64,000 bases of DNA from Anaeromyxobacter sp. Fw109-5 (lineage in GTDB: Bacteria > Myxococcota > Myxococcia > Myxococcales > Anaeromyxobacteraceae), in assembly GCF_000017505.1 (NCBI RefSeq), contig NC_009675.1:1302001-1366000 (forward strand). Reading direction: 5' to 3'. The notes under the pieces were generated by a model. The model was not told where the DNA came from. It did no database searches and saw nothing but the letters and a program-made list of their open reading frames with translations. Shown here one piece after another: positions 3,662 to 49,120 of this stretch. Positions within the stretch are counted from its first letter, which is position 1. Every line of letters begins with the position of its first letter. The position numbers were made by a program, and so were the translations under genes.

Positions 3662-4783
3662 CTAGCGTCCCTCGTCCACCGCGGCGCGGGCCTGGGCCGC
3701 CCGGCGCTCCTCCTGGGCCGGGACCTCGGCGAGTGACACCCGCAGCGAGCGCTCGGGCCCTTCCCCGCGCCGGGTCTTCAGCTCGACCTCGCGCCCCACC
3801 CCCGCGGTGGAGACGTACCAGCGCAGTCGCGATGGGGTGCGGATCTCGTGGCCCTGGAACCCGGTGATCACGTCGCCGACCTTCACCCCGGCGGTCGCGG
3901 CCGGCCCCCCCGCGGCGACCTCCGTCACGACCACCCCGGCGGCCGGGGCCTCCTCGCCCCTTGTCCGCTCGCGCACCGCGACGCCGAGCCAGCTCCTCAC
4001 CACGCGGCCGCGGTCGCGGAGCTGCCCCACGATCTCCTTCGCCATGTTGATCGGTACGGCGAAGCCGATGCCCTGGCCCGTCGCGTTCACCGCGGTGGCG
4101 ATGCCGATGACCTCCCCGCGGAGGTTCACGACGGGCCCTCCGGAGTTGCCCGGGTTGATCGAGGCGTCGGTCTGGATGAAGTCGTACGTCCCCGGGCGAC
4201 CGAGCGGGGCGATGTCGGTGCGCCCGGTGTGGCTCACGATCCCGAGCGTCACGGTGTGGTCGAGCCCGAAGGGGCTGCCCACCACGAGCACCCACTCGGC
4301 GACCACCACGCGGTCGGAGTCGCCGAGCGGCACGACCGGGAGCGGCCGCTTCACGTCCACCTTGAGGAGCGCGACGTCCGACTCCGCGTCGGCTCCGACG
4401 ACGCGCGCCTTGATCCGCGGCCCGTCGTTCCCGAGGTCGACCTCGATCACCTCCGCGCCCTCGACCACGTGGGCGTTCGTGAGCACCCACCCGTCGCGGT
4501 GGATCACGAACCCCGAGCCGATCCCCTTGCGCGGACCCTCGTTCAGCTTCTCGAACAGCTCGCGGAGCTGCTCGTCGCTCGCGCCCGGGGGTGGCGCTTG
4601 CGTCGTGACCACCCCGACCACGGCGGGGATCACCGACTCCGCGAGCCTCGACAGCTCCGGCAGCCCCTGCACGCTCGGGGGCGGCGCCGGAGGGGCCTTC
4701 GCCTCCGTGTACAGCAGACGCGGCGCGTCGCCCGGTGCCGCCGCCATCCACGCCGCCGCCAAGAGCGCCGCCCACCCCGACAT
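3662..4783 (-). CDS. HtrA/DegP-type serine protease with one PDZ domain
   Basis: A 373-residue periplasmic trypsin-like protease of the HtrA family. The start at 4783 gives a signal peptide (MSGWAALLAAAWMAAA). The catalytic triad reads His105 (LTNAHVV), Asp136 (ESDVALLKV) and Ser214 (INPGNSGGPV). A single PDZ domain (about residues 270-350, with GVKVGDVITGFQG) follows, so the architecture is DegS/DegP-like with one PDZ. It probably degrades or senses misfolded envelope proteins. An in-frame ATG 13 codons upstream would spoil the signal peptide. The tail past about 355 is charged and probably disordered. Confidence 0.9.
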   Translation of the reverse strand: MSGWAALLAAAWMAAAPGDAPRLLYTEAKAPPAPPPSVQGLPELSRLAESVIPAVVGVVTTQAPPPGASDEQLRELFEKLNEGPRKGIGSGFVIHRDGWVLTNAHVVEGAEVIEVDLGNDGPRIKARVVGADAESDVALLKVDVKRPLPVVPLGDSDRVVVAEWVLVVGSPFGLDHTVTLGIVSHTGRTDIAPLGRPGTYDFIQTDASINPGNSGGPVVNLRGEVIGIATAVNATGQGIGFAVPINMAKEIVGQLRDRGRVVRSWLGVAVRERTRGEEAPAAGVVVTEVAAGGPAATAGVKVGDVITGFQGHEIRTPSRLRWYVSTAGVGREVELKTRRGEGPERSLRVSLAEVPAQEERRAAQARAAVDEGR

Positions 4784-4904
4784 GTGCACCTCCGCCCCCC
4801 GACCGCGGGCTCCCCGGCACAAGGTGGGGACCGCGCTGGAGGCGGCGCAAGGAGGCGAAGCTGGGGGGCGCCCCGGCGGTCGTCGCGGGCCCGGGGGCCC
4901 GGCG

Positions 4905-5210
4905 CTACCGGTGCGTCGCGAGCTCGTCGGTGAGGACGCGATCGAGGGCGCGGCGGTCGGAGTCGGTGTGACCCTCGGTGGGCCGGGTGCGCGACCCTCC
5001 CGGCGCGCCGCGAGCCTGCGAGCGGGCGGTCGGCCGCCGCGGAGGCGCGTCGTCGCCGGCGAGCTCCTTCCAGCCGCGCTCCAGGAACGACGGGAGGCTG
5101 CCGGCGCGCTCCCAGCGCGCCGCCAGCGTGCGGCCGCCGACGGGGACCCACAGCCACAGCGCCGCGAGCACGGCGCCGGCGAGGACGAGCTTCGCGAGCA
5201 GGCGGAGCAT
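4905..5210 (-). CDS. Small single-pass membrane protein, hypothetical
   Basis: A 101-residue protein of unknown function. Residues 4-24 (LLAKLVLAGAVLAALWLWVPV) form one membrane anchor or uncleaved signal, followed by VGGRTLAARWERAGSLPSF and a proline/arginine-rich, probably disordered tail ending in DRRALDRVLTDELATHR. The ATG at 5210 starts right at the hydrophobic segment. The gene lies 86 bases downstream of gph on the same strand. No family is recognised, but the anchor plus a conserved-looking short helix suggest a real envelope protein. Confidence 0.6.
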   Translation of the reverse strand: MLRLLAKLVLAGAVLAALWLWVPVGGRTLAARWERAGSLPSFLERGWKELAGDDAPPRRPTARSQARGAPGGSRTRPTEGHTDSDRRALDRVLTDELATHR

Positions 5211-5296
5211 GGGCACCGGGTAGCACGCTGACCGCGCGCGAGCGAGTTTTCGCCGGCGCCCGGGCGGGCCTGGCGGGGTCGCGGCGCCGCCGGCGG

Positions 5297-5926
5297 CTAG
5301 CGCAGGTACGCGGCGAGCTCGCCCGCGTCGTCGACGAACACGGTGGCGCCCGCCGCGGCGAGCTCCGCGCGCGAGCCGAGGCCCCAGGTCACCGCCACGA
5401 GCGCGACACCCGCGGCGCGCGCCGTCGCGGCGTCGATGCGGCTGTCCCCCACGAAGAGCGTGTCCGAGGGGGCGGCGCCCACCCGCGCCATGAGCTCGAG
5501 CGTCCCGGCGGGATCGGGCTTGCGCGGCGCCTCGTCCCCTCCGACGACCGCCGCGAACCGCCCCGCGACGCCCAGGCCGGCGAGGATCTTGCGGGCGAGC
5601 GCCCCCGGCTTGTTCGTGTGGACGGCCAGCGCGCGGCCGGCGCCGGCGAGCGCGGCCTCCACGCCGGGGAAGAGCCGCGTGCGATCCAGGCAGTGCGCGT
5701 CGTAGTGCTCGCGCCACAGCGCGAGCGCCGGCTCGAGCAGCTCGTCCCGCGGGGCGACGGCGCGGGCGAGGAGCAGGCGCGCCCCCTCTCCCACGAACCC
5801 GCGGATCTCGTCGCGGCGGCGGGGCGGGAGCCCCAGCGCGGCGAGGGCGTGGTTCACCGAGGCGGCGAGGTCGTCCACCGAGTCGACGAGCGTGCCGTCG
5901 AGATCGAAGATGGCGAGCCGGCTCAC
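5297..5926 (-). CDS. gph: HAD-family phosphatase, phosphoglycolate phosphatase type
   Basis: A 209-residue HAD hydrolase. Motif I is FDLDGTLVDS at residues 6-15 with both aspartates, motif II is VHTNKP, the motif III lysine lies in APRKPDP, and motif IV is FVGDSRID. The cap between motifs I and II is the small helical type of Gph. The likely reaction is dephosphorylation of 2-phosphoglycolate produced by DNA repair or oxygenation. The GTG start (5926-5924) overlaps the TGA of the OmpA gene in a GTGA junction, so translation is probably coupled. Related HAD phosphatases with other substrates cannot be excluded. Confidence 0.85.
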   Translation of the reverse strand: MSRLAIFDLDGTLVDSVDDLAASVNHALAALGLPPRRRDEIRGFVGEGARLLLARAVAPRDELLEPALALWREHYDAHCLDRTRLFPGVEAALAGAGRALAVHTNKPGALARKILAGLGVAGRFAAVVGGDEAPRKPDPAGTLELMARVGAAPSDTLFVGDSRIDAATARAAGVALVAVTWGLGSRAELAAAGATVFVDDAGELAAYLR

Positions 5927-44916: not shown

Positions 44917-45828
44917 TCACCGCTTCGCGCGCGCCACGCGCAGCAGGTGGTCCAGCACGAGCGCGTCGACGGTGCCGTCCCGGCGGATGCGTCCCTCGAG
45001 GTTCTCCCACCCCATGAAGTCCTCGAGCGCGCGCTGGCTCGCCTCGTCCCAGGCGCCGGACGGCTTCGACTTCAGGAACCCGGTCCTGGCGAGGGCGGCC
45101 TGCACCCTGCGGGCGCGGCCGGCGTCGAGCGGCAGCGCCTGCCGCGTCTCGCCGAAGTAGTACTGGTGCACGTCCTCGTAGAGCCGGCGCAGCTCGGCGA
45201 TCGGGCGCGCGTGATCGTCCACCCGCAGATCCACCCACACGTCGCCGGCGCCGCCGTAGCCGCCGCCGGGCTTCACGACGAGGAGCGCGGCGCTCTCCTG
45301 CCCGCGTCGATCGCCGCCGGCGCGCTGGCCCGCCTCGAGCGCGAGCAGCAGCCGCTCCGCGAGCGGCTTGCGCGCGTCGCGGGCCGCCTCGTACGCCCGG
45401 GCCATCGCCTCCACCACCGCCCGTCCCGCGAGCACGTTCCCCTGCACGGCGAAGCCGTCGCCGGAGAGGCCGCTCGCGTGCGCGAAGCAGCGCGAGCCGG
45501 TGAAGGTGGCCGCGCGGCCCTTCGCGTCCACGACGCCGAGCTGCCGGTCCTGCGCGTCCGGATCCGCCTCGACCAGCCGCCGCACGATCTCCTCGGGCGC
45601 CACGCCGTCGCCGAGCAACCGGAGGCCCTCCGCCTTCCAGGCGCCGTTGGCGAGCGACTGCGTGGCGATCGCGCCCGCGCCGGCCCGGGCCGCCGGGACG
45701 ATCGCGCCGACGGCCGGGAACTTCGACTGCACCGCCACGCCGATCTGGCCGGTCGCGGGGTCCGCCGCGACGATGCTGAAGGTCCCCAGGGCGAGCGCGA
45801 GCAGGGCAGGCGTCATGCGTGCCGTCAT
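44917..45828 (-). CDS. DUF1028 protein with peptidoglycan-binding-like C-terminus
   Basis: A 303-residue protein. Residues about 5-215 are DUF1028, an Ntn-hydrolase-like fold: TFSIVAADPATGQIGVAVQS, then VGAIVPAARAGAGAIATQ, and GYGGAGDVWVDLRVDDHARP at the end of the domain. Residues about 225-300 resemble a putative peptidoglycan-binding helical domain (RRVQAALARTGFLKSKPSGAWDEA type). The reaction is unknown. Two ATGs (45828 and 45816) are both plausible starts. One copy of a 10-bp motif shared with the XRE gene lies upstream. Confidence 0.83.
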   Translation of the reverse strand: MTARMTPALLALALGTFSIVAADPATGQIGVAVQSKFPAVGAIVPAARAGAGAIATQSLANGAWKAEGLRLLGDGVAPEEIVRRLVEADPDAQDRQLGVVDAKGRAATFTGSRCFAHASGLSGDGFAVQGNVLAGRAVVEAMARAYEAARDARKPLAERLLLALEAGQRAGGDRRGQESAALLVVKPGGGYGGAGDVWVDLRVDDHARPIAELRRLYEDVHQYYFGETRQALPLDAGRARRVQAALARTGFLKSKPSGAWDEASQRALEDFMGWENLEGRIRRDGTVDALVLDHLLRVARAKR

Positions 45829-45905
45829 ACCGCAGTCGCGCGGCCGGGCGCGCACCGGCGGCGGGCGGGCACGCCGATCCCACGCCCGGCCGGCAGCCCG
45901 CTACT

Positions 45906-45915
45906 CACTCATTGT
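45906..45915 (-). promoter_or_regulatory. ACAATGAGTG site upstream of the DUF1028 gene
   Basis: On the minus strand this reads ACAATGAGTG, continuing with AG. It lies 78 bases upstream of the DUF1028 start. The same decamer recurs upstream of the XRE gene, with 11 of 12 bases shared when the flank is included. It may be an operator or a promoter element. Confidence 0.4.
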
Positions 45916-45993
45916 GAAGGAGACGCGCCGCCGGGCTCGCGCCGCGGGGACCGCCGGGCGGTCACCGCGGGTCGAGGCGCTCCGTCGCGCGGC

Positions 45994-46200
45994 TCACTTG
46001 CCGAGCAGGTTGGCGGGCGGGACGCCCAGCGCCTTGGCCATCTTCTCGATGGTCTCGAGCGGCGGCGAGCGCTGCCCGCGCTCGAGCATGGAGACGTACG
46101 AAACGGAGATCCCGACCTTGTCGGCCAGCGCCTTCTGCGAAAGCTTCTTCTTCGCCCGGAGGCGCCGCACGTTACCGGCGAACCGCGTCAGGAGATCCAT
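45994..46200 (-). CDS. XRE-family transcriptional regulator
   Basis: A 68-residue helix-turn-helix protein of the Cro/C1 (XRE) type that is almost nothing but the DNA-binding domain: NVRRLRAKKKLSQKALADKV, then GISVSYVSMLERGQRSPPLETIEKMAKALGV in two consecutive helices. It is divergent from the two-gene selenoprotein operon with 125 bases between them, and could regulate that operon and itself. Minimal XRE proteins often bind as dimers to short repeated sites, and a repeated decamer is present in its promoter region. Confidence 0.92.
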   Translation of the reverse strand: MDLLTRFAGNVRRLRAKKKLSQKALADKVGISVSYVSMLERGQRSPPLETIEKMAKALGVPPANLLGK

Positions 46201-46228
46201 GAGGAACCCTTAGCAAAGCGACCGATCA

Positions 46229-46238
46229 CACTCATTGT
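46229..46238 (-). promoter_or_regulatory. ACAATGAGTG site upstream of the XRE gene
   Basis: Second copy of the decamer, read on the minus strand, 28 bases upstream of the XRE start and 88 bases upstream of the divergent peroxiredoxin start. Its position fits an autoregulatory operator covering the divergent promoter region. Confidence 0.4.
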
Positions 46239-46325
46239 CCTTTTCGGGGTGCCCCCCGGGCGTTCTCGACGCACAGTGACGTACTGATTAACTCGTGTCC
46301 TGTCCACGACGAAAGGAGCCACTCG

Positions 46326-46838
46326 ATGGCAGCAAAGCCGAAGCCCGTCTGGCGGCTGGAGGTCGGCGACGAGGCGCCGGACTTCGAGCTGATGGCCACC
46401 GGCAACACCGCCGGTAAAGGGGACGCCCGGCGGAAGATCCGCCTGTCGGACTACCGCGGCAAGAAGAACGTGGTGCTGGCGTTCTACCCCGCCGCCTACA
46501 CCCCCGTCTGAACCGTCCAGATGCCCTCGTACGAGGAGGATCTCTCCGAGTTCGAGCGGCGCAATGCCCAGGTCCTGGGCATCAGCACGGATCAGGTCCA
46601 CACGAACGAGGCGTGGGCGAAGTCGATGGGCGGGCTGTCGTTCCCGCTCCTGTCCGATCACTGGCCGCACGGCTACGTGGCCGCCCTCTACGGCGTCCTG
46701 CGCGGCGAGAGCGGCATCTGCGAGCGCGCCATCTTCGTGGTCGACAAGCAGGGGAAGATCGCCTACGTCGACATCCACGACATCGCCGAGCAGCCGCCCA
46801 CCGACAAGATCATGGCGGCGCTCGACAAGCTGAAGTGA
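46326..46838 (+). CDS. Selenocysteine-containing peroxiredoxin
   Basis: A 170-residue peroxiredoxin if the in-frame TGA at 46509-46511 is read as selenocysteine. The frame before and after it encodes one continuous peroxiredoxin: FYPAAYTPV, then TGA as residue 62, then TVQMPSYEEDL. The family has PxxxTxxC here, so Sec replaces the peroxidatic Cys. Arg134 (CERAIFVVDK) is the expected catalytic Arg, and Cys132 beside it is the only cysteine, a possible resolving partner. It reduces peroxides, resembling AhpE/PrxU. AAAGGAG at 46312-46318 supports the ATG. A SECIS-like hairpin follows the TGA. The GrdB-like gene starts 10 bases later. Confidence 0.85.
46519..46543 (+). promoter_or_regulatory. Candidate bacterial SECIS of the peroxiredoxin gene
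   Basis: Just after the TGA (46509-46511) the coding RNA can fold with a lower stem AGAT/ATCT (46519-46522 with 46540-46543), a small internal loop, an upper stem CCTC/GAGG (46525-46528 with 46533-46536) and a GTAC loop whose first base is G. The loop starts 17 nt after the TGA. This geometry suits SelB-binding bacterial SECIS elements, which have little primary-sequence conservation. Confidence 0.6.
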
Positions 46839-46848
46839 CGGAGGCGAG

Positions 46849-47553
46849 ATGGCCACCGCCGAGCCCAAGCCGCTCGAGCTCTCCCGCTACTGCGTGCCGT
46901 TCACGCCCTTCCAGGGAAAGCTCGAGGAGACCTCCATCTGCCTGGTCTCGACGGCGGGGGTGCGGCACCGCGACGACGCGCCGTTCAACACCGAGGGCGA
47001 CGCCACCTGGCGCGTCATCGGGAGCGACGTCGCGGCGAAGGACCTCCGCTACGACGACACGCACTACGATCACGCCTGCGTGGATCGCGACCTGAACTGC
47101 GTGTTCCCGATCGATCGGCTCCACGAGCTCGCGCGCGAGGGGCGCGTGCGCGGGCTCACCGAGCGCCACTTCTCGCTCGGCTTCAGCCAGGCGCTGCGCG
47201 AGCTGCGGGAGAAGACCATCCCCGCCCTCGTGCGCGAGGTGGACCGCGAGCGCCCGGGCGCGGTGCTCCTCACCGGCGGCTGACGCCTGTGCCACCGCAC
47301 GGTGGTCACCGTGCAGCGGGCGATCGAGATGGTGGGCATCCCCACCGTCGTGGTGACCGTCGAGCCCGAGGAGACCCGCCAGGCACGCCCGCCGCGGGCG
47401 CTCTGCCCGCGCGGCTTCGTCGTCGGCCACTCCCTCGGGCGGCCCGACGACGCGGCGCTGCAGAAGTGGATCCTGATGGACGCGCTCGGCCTCCTCCTCG
47501 CCGATCCGCGGCCGGGCGAGGTCATCGAGCGCGACTACACCAGCGGGGAGTGA
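46849..47553 (+). CDS. Selenoprotein B-family reductase (GrdB/PrdB-like) with Sec
   Basis: A 234-residue protein if the in-frame TGA at 47281-47283 is read as selenocysteine (residue 145). The parts on both sides match one family, glycine/sarcosine/betaine/D-proline reductase selenoprotein B: PFNTEGDATWRVIGSDV, HYDHACVDRDLNCVFPIDRL, VLLTGG, then TGA, RLCHRT and AIEMVGIPTVVVTVEPEE. The redox motif is U-x-x-C (Sec145, Cys148). The family makes selenoenzymes that split C-N bonds, but standalone short members like this one have unknown substrates. It is co-transcribed with the selenocysteine peroxiredoxin. A SECIS-like hairpin follows. Confidence 0.82.
47289..47309 (+). promoter_or_regulatory. 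Candidate bacterial SECIS of the GrdB-like gene
   Basis: Six bases after the TGA the RNA can form GTG+CCACC (47289-47296) paired with GGTGG (47301-47305) and, after a single bulged T, CAC (47307-47309). The GCAC loop again starts with G. It is an 8-bp stem, stronger than the peroxiredoxin one; its loop begins 13 nt after the TGA, slightly closer than typical. Confidence 0.6.
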
Positions 47554-47554
47554 A

Positions 47555-47594
47555 GCCGGCCGCCCTCGCCCGAGGGAGGGCGGCGGCGGCCGGC
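47555..47594. terminator. Hairpin between the selenoprotein operon and the convergent lipoprotein gene
   Basis: An inverted repeat pairs GCCGGCCGCCCT (from 47555) with AGGGCGGCGGCGGCCGGC (to 47594) around a short loop. It occupies nearly all the 46-base gap between the two stop codons and could stop transcription from both sides. Confidence 0.5.
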
Positions 47595-47599
47595 GCGCG

Positions 47600-49120
47600 T
47601 CACGGACCGTCGTACGCGGTCACGCCCCCCGGCCCGAACTTCGACGCGAGGTGCGCCAGGTAGACGATGCGCGGGCTCGCCCATCGATCGATCTGGATGG
47701 AGCGCACCGGCCCCCGCGCCGAGGCGGGCAGCGCGTCCCAGGCGATGTCCCGGATCCACCGGCCGCCCCGGTACCGCGCGAAGCCGCCCCAGGAGAGCCC
47801 CACCCACACCCCGCGGTCCAGCGGATCGCACGCGACGGCGAGCACGCCGCCGCCGTCCGGCGGGCTGCCGACCTTGGTGAACGTCGCGTCGCGGCTTCCC
47901 CGGAAGGCGAGCCCGTGCGACTCCGAGCCGACCCACATCGTGCCGTCGTCGCAGAAGGCGATCGACTGCACGCCGTCCCGCTTCGAGGCGTCGACCGGAT
48001 CCGCGTCCTCCTCCCAGATCCACAGGTGCGGCAGGGGCGGCTCCTGGTTCCCCCACCACAGCCCGTGGAGCGCCGTCACCGACGGCCGCGCCATCGACGC
48101 GTAGCCGGGGAGGCTCGCCATGCGGAACTGGTTGGCGTACCAGGGGACGTTCGACGTGGGGTCGAACGCGAGCGCCCACGCCTCGCCGGTGAGGAACTGA
48201 TCGTGGGCGTAGATGGCGGGGTGCTCGTGCTCGAACACGCTCCGCGCGTCCGCCCAGGCGGGATCGCCGCCCGTGAGGTCCTGCCAGCCGCGGTCCTCCG
48301 GGTTGGCGACCAGGATCGCGATGGAGGCGTGCGTCCCGCCCAGGAGCGCGTCGCCGTACGAGCGCGGGCGGCGCGCGTCGTGGTTCACCACGATGCGCTG
48401 CACCTGCCGCATCTTTCGCCGCCCGCCGACCATGAACGGATCCCAGCCGAAGCACTGCTCGTCGCCCGTGCCCGGGACGAAGAACTCGCAGACGTAGCCG
48501 GGCGGCGTGGCGACGCGGACGTGGCGCTCGCGCGCGAGCGTCGTGCCGTCGAAGGTCACGACGTCCGCGCCGCCGGAGTCGACCGCCCAGTCGGCGTCCG
48601 TGTCGCCGTCGGTGCCGACGCCCCTGAAGCCGACGATGGCGCGGTTGGGCGTGGCCCCCGCGACCGAGATGACGGGGCACATCACCGCCGGGTCCGCGGG
48701 CGCCGGGGTCGCGATCCCCGCCGCGTCGTGGCAGTTCTTCGTGAGCCCCGCGTCGTCCGCGTCGAAGCGCCGGAACTCCTGCGCCGCGCGCGTCTTCGCG
48801 TACACCGCCTCGCCCGCCGCCACGTAGACGTTCCCGGCCTCGTCCGCGGAGACGTCGCTCACCTCCCCGACGAGCCCCTGCCCGGCGCTCCAGAAGCGGA
48901 ACTGGCCGACGACGACGGGCGGGTCGACGGTCGGCGCGACGCCGCCTCCCGCGCCTCCGCCGCCGCCCCCGCCTCCGTCGCCGCCTCCGCCGGTGCCGCC
49001 TCCGCCGCCGGTACCGCCCGTTCCGTCGCCGCCGGAGTCATCCGGCGTCTTCGTGCCCCCGCCGCCGCACGCGGCGACGAGGAGCGCGGCGAGCGCAGCC
49101 GTCCAGCGCATCCGCCCCAT
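47600..49120 (-). CDS. Lipoprotein with glycine-rich linker and propeller-like domain
   Basis: A 506-residue putative lipoprotein. The signal peptide ends in the lipobox LVAAC (residue about 17), and a glycine-rich linker of about 45 residues follows. The rest has spaced short repeats of the type ISVAG, VAADEAGNVYVA, VQSIAFCDDGTMWVGSES and VLAVACDPLDRGVWVGLSWGG, typical of beta-propeller folds such as the two-component-regulator propeller. No catalytic motif is recognised; it is probably surface-bound. The ATG at 49120 has AGGAGA about 7 bases upstream. Confidence 0.72.
   Translation of the reverse strand: MGRMRWTAALAALLVAACGGGGTKTPDDSGGDGTGGTGGGGGTGGGGDGGGGGGGGAGGGVAPTVDPPVVVGQFRFWSAGQGLVGEVSDVSADEAGNVYVAAGEAVYAKTRAAQEFRRFDADDAGLTKNCHDAAGIATPAPADPAVMCPVISVAGATPNRAIVGFRGVGTDGDTDADWAVDSGGADVVTFDGTTLARERHVRVATPPGYVCEFFVPGTGDEQCFGWDPFMVGGRRKMRQVQRIVVNHDARRPRSYGDALLGGTHASIAILVANPEDRGWQDLTGGDPAWADARSVFEHEHPAIYAHDQFLTGEAWALAFDPTSNVPWYANQFRMASLPGYASMARPSVTALHGLWWGNQEPPLPHLWIWEEDADPVDASKRDGVQSIAFCDDGTMWVGSESHGLAFRGSRDATFTKVGSPPDGGGVLAVACDPLDRGVWVGLSWGGFARYRGGRWIRDIAWDALPASARGPVRSIQIDRWASPRIVYLAHLASKFGPGGVTAYDGP

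Follow-up and report, generated by a model that had tools for sequence, protein, structure and literature searches.

The peroxiredoxin AhpE of Mycobacterium tuberculosis (Rv2238c) is reduced by mycoredoxin/mycothiol, while many other 1-Cys peroxiredoxins still lack a resolved reductant. PrdB and GrdB, in turn, are reductases of small molecules, and what PrdB-like selenoproteins do in organisms that lack D-proline reductase has yet to be explained. Selenoprotein genes may be grouped, and the known operons include grdA-grdB, prdB-prdC, frhA-frhD-hdrA, SAO, and Tso, according to an overview (PMC13188914). PrdB also ranks among the commonest marine selenoprotein families, according to a survey of marine reads (PMC2398784). 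For A. dehalogenans, both families considered here have been known since 2006, when its selenoproteome was listed as including peroxiredoxin (3) and proline reductase (PMC1794560).

Here we describe a locus of Anaeromyxobacter sp. Fw109-5, within an analyzed stretch of 64,000 nucleotides (hereafter the window), in which a gene for an AhpE-like 1-Sec peroxiredoxin (prx) is followed by a gene for a stand-alone PrdB-like selenoprotein. Like the known operons, this unit holds more than one selenoprotein gene; unlike them, the combination of peroxiredoxin and PrdB-like protein is not named in the accessible portion of the overview (PMC13188914), nor among the neighboring selenoprotein pairs from marine reads in the accessible portion of the survey (PMC2398784). 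A text search of the literature for the pair, or for a joint switch of its catalytic residues, returned no report, although its coverage was incomplete and an earlier description is thus possible. Within these limits, the conservation of the pair, its joint switch, the support for SECIS elements, and the subfamily-specific cysteines are new. The pair bears on both of the questions above, and a conserved operon with a joint catalytic-residue switch makes them testable using a single purified protein pair.

Recoded TGA codons and candidate SECIS hairpins

The prx gene (46326..46838, + strand) and the PrdB-like gene (46849..47553, + strand) are separated by 10 nt containing a GGAGG ribosome-binding site, and each frame includes exactly one in-frame TGA. 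In prx, this codon (46509-46511) corresponds to Sec62 of a PxxxTxxU motif (context PAAYTPVU-TVQMPSYEEDL), and in the PrdB-like gene (47281-47283) to Sec145 of a U-R-L-C motif (context LLTGGU-RLCHRTVVTVQ). A sequence-only reading of the window had argued that two such codons are very unlikely to be unrelated nonsense mutations, and this was borne out: in both genes, the TGAs align with redox Cys or Sec of homologues, and their positions are identical in 21 of the 23 pairs recovered from related genomes, the remaining two pairs having Cys at both sites. Both SelB (325 bits) and tRNA-Sec (75 bits) were found in the genome.

Comparison among these relatives supports the presence of SECIS hairpins following both TGA codons. 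The predicted prx hairpin (46509..46560, + strand) combines an outer stem, CUCG/CGAG, with an inner stem, GGAG-GAUCU-CUCC, which is preserved in every Sec member (21/21) and in neither of the Cys members (0/2). The codons past the TGA include the strongest synonymous-site conservation of the gene (permutation p about 0.002), and an Asp GAT codon is retained in 19 of 20 sequences, although genes in the window favor GAC over GAT by 121:26. In the PrdB-like gene, the predicted hairpin (47281..47325, + strand) consists of a 7-bp stem closed by a GGUC loop (GCACGGU-GGUC-ACCGUGC at 47297-47314), with compensatory changes from G-C to C-G in five sequences and from U-A to C-G in one. Overall, 95.5% of cells pair in this alignment, compared to ≤60% in slid controls; the loop is found in 21/21 Sec members, with the hairpin shifted three bases earlier in two of them (L034 and L036), and the stem is lost in both Cys members (2/2). 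Neither single-sequence folding of each post-TGA stretch against shuffles nor a synonymous-codon simulation (prx 0.65, prdB 0.22) was significant, and the case for SECIS elements thus rests on comparison. An Rfam scan of 45900-47700 yielded chance hits only, with no match to SECIS or any other family.

Under the standard code, both TGA codons do terminate their frames, as would be expected if two nonsense mutations or sequencing errors had accumulated in decaying genes. The probability of such decay is negligible: conservation of the TGA positions in 21 genomes already refutes it, and the intact flanking frames, the SECIS covariation, and the Sec machinery of the genome all speak against it. 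Among the rival explanations considered here, decay alone is excluded. Taken together, the conserved recoding sites, the comparative SECIS evidence, and the presence of SelB and tRNA-Sec show, at the level of sequence, that each of the two UGA codons is decoded as Sec.

The presumed promoter region of the operon (46201..46325) separates prx from a divergent XRE gene and includes family-conserved TTAGCA and CCTTTT(C/A/G)GGG-like (TCCTTTTCGGG-like) elements, for which equivalents were identified by eye in the related loci L032-L053. These elements are possibly parts of a promoter or operator, and no sigma-70 promoter match was found in 46201-46325. Past the second stop codon, a GC-rich hairpin without a T run (47551..47600, + strand; -39.2 kcal/mol, z -3.2) possibly marks the end of the operon; no T-run terminator was found after the PrdB-like gene.

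Relationship of the two proteins to described families

The first protein belongs to the AhpC/TSA peroxiredoxins (PF00578, 126 bits), and, judged by sequence, its closest match of solved structure is M. tuberculosis AhpE, with about 100 bits over almost the entire length. It displays the features of the AhpE type, i.e., a PxxxTxx(C/U) site with an active-site Arg and no conserved resolving Cys. Across the subfamily, Pro55, Thr59, Cys/Sec62, and Arg126 are invariant, and position 62 is the sole invariant Cys/Sec position. Unlike AhpE, with which it shares the absence of a resolving Cys, the window protein has Sec in place of the peroxidatic Cys, and the adjacent gene codes for a PrdB-like selenoprotein. 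The sequence-only reading had compared the pairing to that of PrxU with glycine reductase in clostridia. PrxU is likewise a Sec peroxiredoxin and is homologous to the window protein, but the score of 73 bits against the PrxU model NF040737 is far below its cut-off of 270, and the closest solved structure by sequence is that of a 1-Cys enzyme. Elsewhere in the genome and outside the operon (C1:347084-347470), a second peroxiredoxin gene with an in-frame TGA (TPGU-TREAC) encodes a PrxQ-like protein with a nearby Cys.

The second protein matches the PrdB model TIGR04483 over residues 18-226 with 149.7 bits, i.e., about half of the 300-bit family cut-off. Its best plasmid matches are clostridial PrdB proteins, with up to 38% identity for PrdB of Terrisporobacter. 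Assignment to GrdB was rejected, as the PF07355 match was local only and scored 19.6 bits vs a gathering score of 22; the UxxC segment is common to GrdB and the window protein, whereas the latter is about half as long. Next to one of the prdB genes compared (L106), prdA is found, while PF09338, which detects PrdA/GrdE, was absent from the window organism's genome and five related Myxococcota and was detected in three control records. Given the full-length TIGR04483 match, the sub-cut-off GrdB match, and the absence of PF09338, the predicted protein is PrdB-like rather than GrdB-like and does not belong to a complete D-proline reductase. The partner had initially been described as a GrdB-like Sec protein, of which the Sec stands and the GrdB assignment does not.

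Similarity to PrdB includes full-length homology, a Sec in UxxC followed by HR, and a conserved C84 region. The window protein departs from PrdB by its score, by extra invariant cysteines (C15, C31, and C77), by its fixed position beside a peroxiredoxin, and by the PrdA partner not being found in the window organism's genome. C31 and C77 are subfamily-specific: both are invariant in 13 aligned peroxiredoxin-linked PrdB-like proteins and absent in clostridial PrdB and in an unlinked PrdB-like protein from another phylum (L076). C15 is common to the linked proteins and L076, and UxxC and C84, the latter likewise invariant, are common to the window protein and real PrdB. The unlinked protein (L076, 5001-5666) is itself a selenoprotein with 50% identity, and its gene adjoins pyruvate dehydrogenase and lipoyl synthase genes with no peroxiredoxin gene beside it. 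It was recovered by a peptide-pattern scan of genome contigs, which returned only close relatives and L076 because the patterns used were strict.

An AF2 model of the PrdB-like protein (pLDDT 87.5, pTM 0.88) has a Rossmann-like fold in which Sec145 opens a helix after a strand. A Foldseek search with this model returned nothing below 1e-3, VIA matches were generic Rossmann-type only, and no relative with a solved structure was found by sequence. Since the predicted fold is Rossmann-like and not a thioredoxin fold, a reductase role is not readable from it.

Conservation of the gene pair and joint change of catalytic residues

PrdB-family proteins were detected in 29 of the 195 Myxococcota genomes searched, 23 of which encode the close type. 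Each of these 23 has the prx gene directly upstream on the same strand, mostly with a gap of 2-43 nt, or with an apparent overlap in one case (L047). In a separate draw of 189 genomes, the peroxiredoxin subfamily was found in 23, including 22 with a PrdB-like partner and one without (G157), so that the combined set comprises 24 genomes with the peroxiredoxin, 23 of them having the partner. The exception, G157, encodes a Sec peroxiredoxin, yet has no PrdB-like gene in its genome. A more distant PrdB/GrdB-family group (L041, L046, L050, and L054-L057) has one in-frame TGA in each gene and no close peroxiredoxin nearby.

Seven of the 23 pairs lie outside the family of the window organism. The five of these with best-readable neighborhoods all differ from the window's and no neighbor shared among them was found, while the remaining two sit at or near contig ends. 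Flanking genes include a DJ-1/PfpI-like gene near two of the pairs (L067 and L068), cysS beside another (L072), and other genes at L070. At L065 (about 4300-5700), the pair is located inside the NADH dehydrogenase (nuo) region, with nuoB on one side and nuoD on the other. The sequence-only reading had proposed a two-gene selenoprotein unit and a check of its adjacency in other Myxococcota, and the loss of this neighborhood, which it named as counter-evidence, was looked for and did not occur. As judged from this comparison of genomes, prx and the PrdB-like gene form a conserved unit, with one TGA each in the window.

A joint switch of Cys/Sec usage in the two genes had been named as a further check, and was indeed found: Sec occupies both sites in 21 pairs and Cys in two (G048 and G049, with TPTC and GGCRMC), while both proteins of the sister genome G047 carry Sec. 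In trees, the two Cys genomes group within one genus and all other members and PrdB outgroups have Sec, so that this is one change that hit both genes. G048 retains SelB, so that its switch is not accounted for by a lost ability to decode Sec; no SelB match was found in G049, an 81% complete genome. This joint return from Sec to Cys in one lineage, along with constant adjacency, suggests that the two proteins work as a pair. Alternatively, two unrelated selenoproteins could have been co-kept for joint regulation or translation while being biochemically uncoupled. Pairwise retention of genes is common in bacteria and G157 has the peroxiredoxin alone, both in line with such uncoupled retention, but adjacency persisted despite changed flanks and the catalytic residue changed jointly in both genes, which makes it distinctly unlikely.

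Candidate redox roles and the divergent regulator

We propose that the two selenoprotein genes may form a functional operon that serves to remove peroxide and in which the PrdB-like protein would reduce the oxidized peroxiredoxin, a reading whose chances we consider evenly balanced. Sec62 would reduce peroxide and turn into a selenenic acid, and since the peroxiredoxin has no conserved resolving Cys, its oxidized form would require an outside reductant. The PrdB-like protein is proposed for this role because it is the sole consistent partner, with a UxxC selenol, extra invariant cysteines, and a simultaneous change from Sec to Cys. Its Sec145 would attack the oxidized peroxiredoxin, Cys148 would then resolve the adduct to a selenenylsulfide, and re-reduction could proceed via the extra cysteines (C31, C77, and C84) or thioredoxin. 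The PrdB fold would thereby have been recruited out of amino-acid reduction, PrdA being missing here, into service as a peroxiredoxin reductase. The more specific version, i.e., selenol-to-selenol electron transfer from a stand-alone PrdB-fold selenoprotein, of neither thioredoxin nor glutaredoxin fold, that would be dedicated to reducing a 1-Sec AhpE-like peroxiredoxin, is put forward tentatively. Counting against the reductase role are the peroxiredoxin without partner in G157 and the PrdB-like protein without peroxiredoxin in L076, which indicate that neither protein is strictly dependent on the other. The switch to Cys, as a single event in a single genus, and the predicted Rossmann-like fold count against it as well.

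The PrdB-like protein may instead be an independent reductase of a small molecule, with the peroxiredoxin only protecting its oxidation-prone selenol or clearing nearby peroxide. Such a protective role would agree with the small-molecule activity of the PrdB and GrdB relatives, with the resemblance to real PrdB in C84, UxxC, and a large part of the core, and with the setting of L076, where the PrdB-like gene has no peroxiredoxin gene beside it and its neighbors encode pyruvate dehydrogenase and lipoyl synthase. We nevertheless consider it rather unlikely, as the pyruvoyl subunit PrdA was not found by PF09338 in the window organism's genome and five related ones, and as mere protection predicts neither a joint switch from Sec to Cys with SelB kept nor new invariant cysteines restricted to peroxiredoxin-linked proteins.

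Divergent from the operon, an XRE/HTH_3 regulator of 68 aa (45994..46200, - strand; Pfam HTH_3, 74 bits) had been put forward as its switch. The protein is 89-100% conserved beside all 16 operon members in the family, but was not found adjoining the operon outside the family, and orthologues (81-92%) persist in six relatives without the operon (G044-G046 and G051-G053). In 5/6 of these, an AhpC-type peroxiredoxin gene runs towards the XRE gene, and a DUF1028 gene adjoins in one of the five and in the sixth. Being kept without the operon and near an AhpC-type peroxiredoxin, the XRE gene marks a peroxidase locus rather than the operon's own switch, and its candidacy as a dedicated regulator was rejected. 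This also bears on a relay in the reverse direction, in which the peroxiredoxin would oxidize the PrdB-like protein, which would hand a signal on. A Sec and several invariant cysteines could build such a relay, and the operon is divergent from the regulator within the family, but the XRE protein, which is not dedicated to the operon and does not accompany it outside the family, contains no Cys, so that we regard this sensor relay as very unlikely.

The AhpC-type peroxiredoxin and the operon co-occur in several genomes (L040, L042, L044, L047, and L048). Convergence of a 2-Cys AhpC-type peroxiredoxin with XRE was seen in these and at L061, L122, L124, L129, L130, and L132, including two where it lies beside DUF1028 (L061 and L132). 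In the window organism, this peroxiredoxin of relatives is missing (45840-45993). Exactly two copies of CTCATTGT occur in the window, at 45908 and 46231, flanking the XRE gene on either side; these repeats were rejected as XRE operators, since the 9-mer ACTCATTGT recurs in just one relative examined. At 44917-45855, the window encodes a DUF1028 protein with a peptidoglycan-binding domain at its C-terminus.
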